Assembly (NCBI GenBank): GCA_031276235.1
Contig: JAISNL010000150.1
Location: 1-32,993, forward strand
DNA length: 32,993 nucleotides
Origin: Prevotellaceae bacterium
Lineage (GTDB): Bacteria; Bacteroidota; Bacteroidia; Bacteroidales; UBA932
Direction: 5' to 3'
Position numbers and translations under genes: made by a program. Within the stretch, counting starts at the first letter, position 1. The number at the start of each line of letters is the position of its first letter. Under the pieces are notes generated by a model that saw only the letters and a list, made by a program, of their open reading frames with translations, had not been told where the DNA came from and did no database searches. Positions 4,885 to 14,451 of this stretch are shown here, one piece after another.

Positions 4885-6177
4885 ATGGCATACAAAAAGT
4901 CAACTGATAACAGTAAAAAAAATGTTTCGCGGAAAACATTCAAATCAAAAGATCAATCGTCCAAATCCTATTCGCAAAAAAAATATACCCGTAAATCCAA
5001 TGACAATAGCAGTTTCAGGGAAAGAACGGATGATGAAGCTGCATCCAAAAAACGCAGATTCAACGATGCAGACGAACGACCGAAAAGAACCTACAGACGC
5101 AATGAAGATAAAGGTTTCGGAAGAAGAACGGATGATGAAGCTGCATCTAAAAAACGAAGATTCAGCGATGCAGACGAACGACCGAAAAGAACCTATAGAC
5201 GCAATGAAGATAAAGGTTTCGGAAGAAGAACGGATGATGAAGCTGCATCCAAAAAACGCAGATTCAGCGATGCAGACGAACGACCGAAAAGAACCTACAG
5301 ACGCAATGACGAATATGCATCGCAAAGCGGATTGTCGAATAAAACAGAAAGGCAACCTAAAAATTATGTTCGCATGTCCGAACCAGTTGACAGCAGATTG
5401 CGGCGCAGAATAAAAGAAGCAAAGGTGAATAACGTAGCGGACGTCAATATTGCCGAAGACAGTAAGGTACGCTTGAACAAGTTTATCGCAAATTCGGGAA
5501 TATGTTCGCGGCGCGAAGCCGACACGTTCATAAAAGCCGGAGTGGTTTCGGTGAATGGCGTTGTTGTAACCGAATTGGGAGTTAAAATTTCAACAAATGA
5601 CGAAGTACTGTTTAACGGGGAAAAACTGCACGGCGAAAAAAAGGTTTATCTGGTGATGAACAAACCCAAAGGCTATGTTACAACGGTAGAAGACCCTCAT
5701 GCCGACAAAACAGTGATGACAATTGTGAGCAATTATTGCAGCGAACGCGTTTATCCTGTCGGCAGGCTTGATAAAAATACAACAGGAGTTTTGCTTTTTA
5801 CGAATGATGGAAATTTGACAAAAGTATTGACGCATCCGAGCTACGGAAAGAAGAAAATATATGCCGTAGGATTAGATAGAAATCTTACAAAAAATGATAT
5901 GACGCGGCTTGCCGAGGGCGTTCAACTTGAAGATGGACTTGCTTTTTTTGACGAAATTTCATATACGGACGATAATGATAAACGCAAAATAGGAGTTGAA
6001 ATACATTCGGGCAGAAACAGAATTGTACGCAGAATGTTTGAACATCTTGATTATAAAATTACCAAACTCGACAGAGTATATTTTGCAGGACTTACCAAAT
6101 CGAAACTGCGGCGCGGCGAATGCCGTTTCCTTAGCGAACAGGAAATAATAGCGCTGAAAATGGGAGCGTATGAATGA
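4885..6177 (+). CDS. 23S rRNA pseudouridine synthase, RsuA/RluB family, with Lys/Arg/Asp-rich repetitive N-terminal extension
   Basis: 430 aa; S4 domain RLNKFIANSGICSRREADTFIKAGVVSVNG, catalytic region VYPVGRLDKNTTGVLLFTNDG, GRNRIVRRMFEHL. Confidence 0.93.
   Translation: MAYKKSTDNSKKNVSRKTFKSKDQSSKSYSQKKYTRKSNDNSSFRERTDDEAASKKRRFNDADERPKRTYRRNEDKGFGRRTDDEAASKKRRFSDADERPKRTYRRNEDKGFGRRTDDEAASKKRRFSDADERPKRTYRRNDEYASQSGLSNKTERQPKNYVRMSEPVDSRLRRRIKEAKVNNVADVNIAEDSKVRLNKFIANSGICSRREADTFIKAGVVSVNGVVVTELGVKISTNDEVLFNGEKLHGEKKVYLVMNKPKGYVTTVEDPHADKTVMTIVSNYCSERVYPVGRLDKNTTGVLLFTNDGNLTKVLTHPSYGKKKIYAVGLDRNLTKNDMTRLAEGVQLEDGLAFFDEISYTDDNDKRKIGVEIHSGRNRIVRRMFEHLDYKITKLDRVYFAGLTKSKLRRGECRFLSEQEIIALKMGAYE
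5020..5310 (+). repeat. In-frame 102-bp (34-aa) coding tandem repeat, about 3 copies
   Basis: 'acggatgatgaagctgcatc' starts at 5026, 5128 and 5230 (exact 102-bp spacing); protein repeat RTDDEAASKKRRF(N/S)DADERPKRTYRRNEDKGFGR. Confidence 0.95.
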
Positions 6178-8732: not shown

Positions 8733-8958
8733 TTCCCTTATGCGGGAAAACGTCTTACCCTTATGCGGGAAAACATCTTACCCTTATGCGGGGGAACGTC
8801 TTACCCTTATGCGGGGGAACATCTTACCCTTATGCGGGGGAACATCTTACCCTTATGCGGGGGAACATCTCTCACCTATGCGGGTGAACATCTCTCACCT
8901 ATGCGGGTGAACATCTCTCACCTGTGCGGGTGAACATCTCTCACCTGTGCGGGTGAAT
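8733..8958. repeat. 23-bp tandem repeat, ten copies, each with a short inverted repeat; two sequence blocks (6 + 4)
   Basis: Core TGCGGG at 8741, 8764, 8787, 8810, 8833, 8856, 8879, 8902, 8925 and 8948: exact 23-bp period. Units 1-6 cttaccCTTATGCGGGrraac; units 7-10 ctcTCACCtatgcGGGTGAacat. Confidence 0.97.
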
Positions 8959-13473: not shown

Positions 13474-13595
13474 CAAAAAATAAAATTCATACATACAAGA
13501 TATTTACAAAATAATTAATACGGTAGATTCAACATCTGAGTGCAACTTAGTTTAGAGATGAAAAATTAATAGGATATAACAACTCCTAATGTTGA

Positions 13596-13820
13596 CAAGC
13601 GATGATAAAACCTAATTTTCACCTAATTCAAAAACTGCAAAACAACATCGGTAGCATAGAAAAATAACATACAATTACTTCTTTTCCTCTTTAATCGGGA
13701 AGCAAGAATAATGAGGCAATAAAAGGTTGTCATTGTTGGTTTATTGTGGCTGTTTTGCAGGTAAAATCAGGTCAAAATGAGGTTTTCTTTTGTTATGCCT
13801 TATTTATTTTTCATCGCTTG
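13596..13820. repeat. Nested imperfect inverted-repeat element (MITE-like or structured RNA)
   Basis: Outer arms CAAGCGATGA (13596-13605)/TCATCGCTTG (13811-13820) are perfect. Inner arms AAAACCTAATTTTCACCT (13607-13624)/AGGTCAAAATGAGGTTTT (13769-13786) match 16/18. Innermost CTGCAAAAC (13635-13643)/GTTTTGCAG (13752-13760) are perfect. Confidence 0.7.
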
Positions 13821-13857
13821 GCAAATGTATTTTGAAAATAATTATTACCTTTGCACC

Positions 13858-13970
13858 TGTGTTTAACATACTGCAGCCGTTTACGGACGGTTGTGTATTT
13901 TTTAAGTTTAATAAGTTAATGAAAATTATTAGGGAAGGTGAAAATTTTAGGGTTTTCACCTTTTTGTTTT
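13858..13970 (+). ncRNA. Candidate small RNA, array copy 1
   Basis: Downstream of TACCTTTG (13846-13853); 5' hairpin CAGCCGT-TTACGG-ACGGTTG; terminator AAGGTGAAAA (13935-13944)-TTTTAGGG-TTTTCACCTT (13953-13962) followed by TTTGTTTT. The transcription start is inferred. Confidence 0.55.
13935..13968 (+). terminator. Intrinsic terminator of array copy 1
   Basis: 10-bp stem AAGGTGAAAA/TTTTCACCTT, 8-nt loop, T-rich tail. Confidence 0.7.
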
Positions 13971-13994
13971 GAAAATAATTATTACCTTTGCACT

Positions 13995-14106
13995 TGTGTT
14001 TAACGTACCGCAACCGTTCACAGACGGTTGTGAATTTTTAATGTTTTATAGTTATAAAAATTATTAGGAAAGGTGAAAATTTTAGGGTTTTCACCTTTTT
14101 GTTTTG
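13995..14106 (+). ncRNA. Candidate small RNA, array copy 2
   Basis: Downstream of TACCTTTG (13983-13990); 5' hairpin CAACCGT-TCACAG-ACGGTTG (perfect); terminator AAAGGTGAAAA-TTTTAGGG-TTTTCACCTTTTT. Confidence 0.55.
14069..14105 (+). terminator. Intrinsic terminator of array copy 2
   Basis: 11-bp stem AAAGGTGAAAA/TTTTCACCTTT plus T-tract. Confidence 0.7.
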
Positions 14107-14129
14107 AAAATAAATATTATCTTTGCACT

Positions 14130-14240
14130 TGCGTTTAACGTATTGCAGCCGTTCACAGAAGGTTGTGCATTTTTTATATTTTATAGTTAGAAAAATGGTT
14201 AGGAAAGGTGAAAATTTTAGAGTTTTCACCTTTTGTTTTG
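14130..14240 (+). ncRNA. Candidate small RNA, array copy 3 (5' hairpin with one mismatch)
   Basis: Downstream of TATCTTTG (14118-14125); CAGCCGT-TCACAG-AAGGTTG; terminator AAAGGTGAAAA-TTTTAGAG-TTTTCACCTTTTGTTTT. Confidence 0.5.
14204..14239 (+). terminator. Intrinsic terminator of array copy 3
   Basis: Stem AAAGGTGAAAA/TTTTCACCTTT, loop TTTTAGAG, T-rich tail. Confidence 0.7.
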
Positions 14241-14327
14241 CAAATAATTATTACCTTTCACTTGCGTTTAACGTACTGCAGTCGTTCACAGAAGGAGGCT
14301 TTAATGATGCGATAGATAAAATGAGAC

Positions 14328-14421
14328 GTTGACAGTTAATAATGATAATAATGAGCGGCACTGCGAGGGTTAGCGAAGTAATTCAGAAGAGTGAAAAGTG
14401 AAATAAAAAATAACTGTCCAC
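14328..14421. repeat. Short MITE/REP-like dispersed repeat (relative of 21286-21486)
   Basis: Ends GTTGACAGTTAAT / AATAACTGTCCAC (imperfect TIR); internal 'cactgcgagggttagcgaagtaattcagaagagt' resembles 'cattgcgagcgtcagcgaagcaattcagaaaagt' at ~21411. Confidence 0.65.
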
Positions 14422-14451
14422 TGCTTTGCATGGTTGGGACATTCGTTATTT
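14408..14451 (-). terminator. Hairpin terminator at the 3' end of the histidine kinase gene
   Basis: AAATAAC-TGTCC ... GGACA-(ttc)-GTTATTT; on the - strand it is followed by TTTATTT. Overlaps the stop codon. Confidence 0.5.

Follow-up and report, generated by a model that had tools for sequence, protein, structure and literature searches.

A tandem array of candidate sibling small-RNA genes in one uncultured Bacteroidales species

Short intergenic units that carry their own start and stop signals and encode no conserved protein, repeated head to tail, raise the question of whether they are small-RNA (sRNA) genes or a repeat that merely happens to bear such signals. We studied such an array in the window, the whole stretch of 32,993 nucleotides analysed here, which is contig C49 of a 2.6-Mb draft genome. 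An earlier note on this DNA had described the array as self-contained promoter, hairpin and terminator cassettes and proposed a multicopy family of small non-coding RNA genes of ~110 nt. To our knowledge, few sRNA families have been described in Bacteroidota.

Anatomy of the array

Tandem Repeats Finder (TRF) reported the array as the top-scoring tandem repeat within the window (13830–14292, period 135, 3.4 copies, 89% matches, score 712), and reading of the sequence resolved three intact ~135-bp units and a truncated fourth at 13830–14296. The -7 boxes lie at 13846 (TACCTTTG), 13983 (TACCTTTG), 14118 (TATCTTTG) and 14252 (TACCTTTC), with a spacing of 137/135/134 bp; TRF and sequence reading thus confirm the array, box positions and spacing first noted. 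The features are as follows.

13551–13819, no strand assigned: MITE-like repeat of ~270 bp, with 29-nt terminal inverted repeats at 13554–13582 and 13790–13818
13830–13966, + strand: unit 1, intact; -7 box TACCTTTG at 13846–13853, 5' hairpin 13872–13895, terminator 13933–13964
13967–14101, + strand: unit 2, intact; -7 box TACCTTTG at 13983–13990, 5' hairpin 14009–14032, terminator 14068–14099
14102–14235, + strand: unit 3, promoter and terminator intact; -7 box TATCTTTG at 14118–14125, hairpin (one mismatch) 14144–14167, terminator 14203–14234
14236–14296, + strand: unit 4, truncated within the 5' hairpin; -7 box TACCTTTC, terminator absent

In each intact unit, a TAnCTTTGCAC -7 box precedes a 5' hairpin, which an AT-rich linker joins to a strong terminator hairpin. 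The short unpaired 5' end of the complete units is CACyTGyGTTTAACrTA, their 5' hairpin is GCArCCGT-loop-ACGGTTGTG, and the terminator stem has 14 pairs and a T-run at its end (in unit 2, GAAAGGTGAAAATT-loop-GGTTTTCACCTTTT). Unit 4 has lost the final G of the -7 box and breaks at about 14296 in the hairpin, without linker or terminator; as its box reads TACCTTTC rather than TACCTTTG and it ends inside the hairpin, we regard it as a dead remnant. The description as self-contained cassettes therefore holds for units 1 to 3, which are complete, but not for unit 4, and the 5' hairpin of unit 3 is weakened.

The intact units fold better than all 200 dinucleotide shuffles (z = -3.4, -4.3 and -4.1). 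A stable 5' hairpin is predicted for units 1 and 2, each followed by a T-run, and both hairpins were called terminator-like, so that an early product of ~45 nt is possible. The unit 3 hairpin has one G-A mismatch and, taken alone, is no better than shuffles (z = -0.8); this hairpin and unit 4 are decaying. Substitutions between units affect 13 of 37 linker positions versus 2 of 32 in the terminator (Fisher p = 0.007), and 2 of 17 in the -7 region. Pairing is preserved by four of the five stem substitutions, and no stem pair has changed on both sides, so the evidence from covariation, which the earlier note had proposed to seek, is nil.

Other repeats also occur in the window. A 23-bp tandem repeat (8.9 copies, 8735–8958) lies upstream of a CstA-like gene; between its two variants, CCCTTATGCGGGGG and CACCTATGCGGGTG, the two sides of a small stem seem to have changed in concert, and a portion of this second array folds strongly (z = -5.0). 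In-frame 102-bp repeats (2.8 copies, 96%, 5022–5309) occupy the N-terminal part of reading frame 4885–6177, which looks like a pseudouridine synthase. A short dispersed intergenic repeat at 14355–14423 has many matches elsewhere in the genome, at about 74–97% identity.

Promoter and terminator signals in the genome

Across about 360 kb of the 2.6-Mb genome, we counted 33 occurrences of TAnCTTTGC upstream of genes where shuffles gave 0.2, and the -7 motif is thus a real promoter signal in this organism, as had been supposed. The array was also said to have no clear -33 element, leaving its promoter activity in doubt; that element is indeed not clear in the array, but the doubt is lifted by the other promoters of the genome. 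A TTTG at fixed distance was sought in 40 TAnCTTTGC promoters and none was clear, T-rich positions at about -21 and -15/-14, counted from the box, being the sole upstream signal. Compared with 36 genomic promoters, a set from which the lipoprotein contigs were excluded, the upstream boxes of units 1, 2, 3 and 4 outrank 18, 33, 27 and 27, respectively (50th to 92nd percentile), and so the array promoters look normal for the organism; since those 36 gene promoters are likewise without a clear TTTG box, its absence from the array is no objection. In units 2 to 4, the far upstream part of the promoter falls within the T-run of the preceding terminator.

The array terminator GGTGAAAATTTTAGGGTTTTCACC has seven further occurrences (one with a base change) on contigs C29, C61 and C52, each between tandem lipoprotein-like genes and each followed by a promoter-like stretch. 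These spacers resemble the array in that order of elements, with TATCTTTGC in most, but differ from an array unit in separating protein genes and in having neither the 5' hairpin nor the linker. The GGTGAAAATTTTAGGGTTTTCACC terminator with its loop was sought in 40 relatives, with 0 matches. Tandem lipoprotein-like genes with near-identical terminator–promoter spacers were seen at L022 1–3300, L023 6300–8400 and L024 1–1400.

Copies and homologues of the unit

One diverged further unit with the same layout was found in the same genome, at C5:4686–4822, after which come a second promoter and the beginning of another unit (whole stretch C5:4686–4857); a transposase-like reading frame lies close to it. 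A degenerate 5'-end pattern matched six other places in the genome, where the unit layout was absent, and a covariance model of the unit found nothing further in 270 kb of sampled contigs.

Neither array nor unit was found in ten genus relatives, and comparative evidence of selection is therefore confined to the array itself. These relatives are metagenome-assembled ‘Prevotellaceae bacterium’ genomes, presumably from insect (termite or cockroach) gut, judging by their isolate codes. Eight of the genus relatives carry the histidine kinase gene that flanks the array, but with differing 3' neighbours and in no case with the array. More widely, the covariance model built on the three units gave outside matches at E 0.03–0.1 in 200 family genomes, none convincing on inspection, and at down to E 2e-4 in 394 order genomes, again none convincing: the best of the latter is a hairpin-rich stretch adjoining a tRNA, and in the others the layout is preserved only in part, for which reason we regard them as chance or unproven matches. 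A search of GTDB contigs, a collection from which records of this genome were possibly left out, gave 0 matches to an exact 22-base pattern; phage and plasmid records yielded only short chance pieces, and Rfam gave nothing at either the gathering threshold or E <= 5. The homologues in Bacteroidota genomes and Rfam for which the earlier note had suggested a covariance search were thus not convincingly found among these family and order genomes. The unit family is nearly confined to this genome, and ‘multicopy’ was a generous word for it, given a single extra diverged locus and no clear homologue beyond the genome.

Probable sibling small RNAs and the alternatives

Because the units have their own start and stop signals and no protein, they are most likely sibling sRNA genes special to this species, and we consider it probable that the array is a tandem cluster of such genes, transcribed and acting in trans. 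At the level of sequence, we have established the layout of the units, their promoter and terminator signals, the pattern of conservation and the lack of a conserved ORF. Small non-coding RNA genes rather than a protein locus, as first proposed, is the best-supported reading, given the promoter motif, the strong terminator, the lack of a conserved frame and a position outside the MITE-like repeat.

The main rival, conceivable though rather doubtful, is that the array is non-functional: a terminator-plus-promoter intergenic module, tandemly duplicated and drifting, any transcript of which would be noise. Such a module also separates the lipoprotein-like genes on C29, C61 and C52, the genus is without the array, the surrounding intergenic region is rich in repeats and unit 4 is broken. 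Against drift, the three units have diverged by ~10–12% with promoter and terminator still intact and the linker changed, and the 5' hairpin is specific to the array unit, being absent from the lipoprotein spacers. The repetitive setting also brings in the idea, raised at the outset as an objection, of an IS or MITE fragment amplified with its element, as the MITE-like repeat has dozens of copies (about 50 matching places in the genome, nearly absent from the genus) and its end lies ~10 bases before unit 1. On checking, we found that this repeat abuts the array without containing it, that the unit lies outside the terminal inverted repeats and that other copies stop at their own inverted repeat and carry no unit; array and repeat are distinct, and the idea, largely refuted, is now scarcely credible.

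A cis-acting role is improbable. Three strong terminators and two terminator-type 5' hairpins do face the 3' end of the convergent histidine kinase gene (which ends at 14446) and might shield it from read-through, the promoters being incidental; however, the M49 peptidase gene upstream is divergent, leaving nothing on the + strand to insulate, a -7 box is kept in every unit, which is unexpected of a pure insulator, and relatives carry the same kinase gene without the array beside it. We give still less credence to a reading of units 1 to 3 as tiny leaderless genes (GTG-TTT-AAC ...) for FNVLQPFTDGC-like peptides, despite a frame F-N-x-x-Q-P-F-T-[DE]-G-C that recurs in all three with changes at several third codon positions. 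The putative start codon, GTG in the first two units, reads GCG in unit 3, a 2-base indel makes the C-terminal ends unequal (about 37 versus about 20 codons), and the frame overlaps the hairpin and is without a ribosome-binding site; six-frame translation found no start and stop shared among the units, FNxxQPFTxGC being shared over about 12 codons.

Returning to the sibling sRNA reading, tandem sibling sRNAs such as OmrA/OmrB, PrrF1/PrrF2 and AbcR1/2 are adjacent, similar genes thought to originate by duplication; most form pairs, for which targets are known and homologues occur across species (PMC4211561). The array resembles them, as a kind and not as a homologous family, in its adjacent copies of high identity, each intact one with its own predicted promoter and intrinsic terminator, and in having no conserved ORF. 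It differs in having three copies and a remnant, in showing no sequence relationship to them and in being found in one species; it adds a new case to this known kind. Nearer in taxonomy is FopS (RF04319), a paralogous sRNA family of Bacteroides with an unstructured 5' end that bears the R1 seed, then a terminator, in 12–15 copies per genome; in Bacteroides thetaiotaomicron, the multicopy FopS sRNAs are bound by the RRM protein RbpB (PMC11697453). Judged by its sequence signals, the array is likewise a Bacteroidales locus of candidate multicopy small RNAs with a sigma-ABfr-type promoter and an intrinsic terminator, and its genome also encodes an RRM protein (C112:1193–1402, E 8.6e-22), as FopS works with an RRM-1 protein; unlike FopS, it has a 5' hairpin in place of a single-stranded seed directly before the terminator. 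Against the FopS covariance model (71 positions, cut-off 56 bits) the array scored 19.2 bits (E 2.6), and a search of the whole genome for FopS gave 0 matches at E <= 0.01. Membership of FopS is ruled out by 19.2 versus 56 bits, and that of any other Rfam family by the lack of a match.

We infer that the units are transcribed and that their RNAs act as other tandem sibling sRNAs do. Tandem duplication in one uncultured Bacteroidales species would have given three sibling sRNA genes and one dead copy. A housekeeping-type promoter in each of the three would drive transcription on the + strand, which would start near 13858, 13995 or 14130 and end at the unit's own intrinsic terminator after about 105–110 nt, or after about 45 nt should the first hairpin act as a terminator; the ~110 nt first suggested agrees with the former and may not hold throughout, given the terminator-like 5' hairpin. 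By analogy with other tandem siblings, the RNAs may act in trans, their unpaired 5' end (GUGUUUAACGUA) pairing with target mRNAs, and additional copies would raise the sRNA dose. A search for base-pairing targets in 255 start regions (360 kb of 2.6 Mb) gave best duplexes no better than those of shuffled sRNA pieces. The RRM-type protein is a possible partner, by analogy with RbpB/FopS.

As to origin, a newly born, species-private family, in which a terminator–promoter spacer resembling those of the lipoprotein-like genes gained a short hairpin-bearing transcribed segment and was then amplified in tandem, is an unlikely scenario; if true, it would amount to recent de novo birth of an sRNA gene with dosage amplification in an uncultured Bacteroidales. 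The array alone changes no known principle. If it is transcribed, an unclassified sRNA family has been caught early, in one species, with three live copies, one dying copy and a diverged relative, and the array would serve as a small test case of the origin and multiplication of sRNA genes in Bacteroidota.
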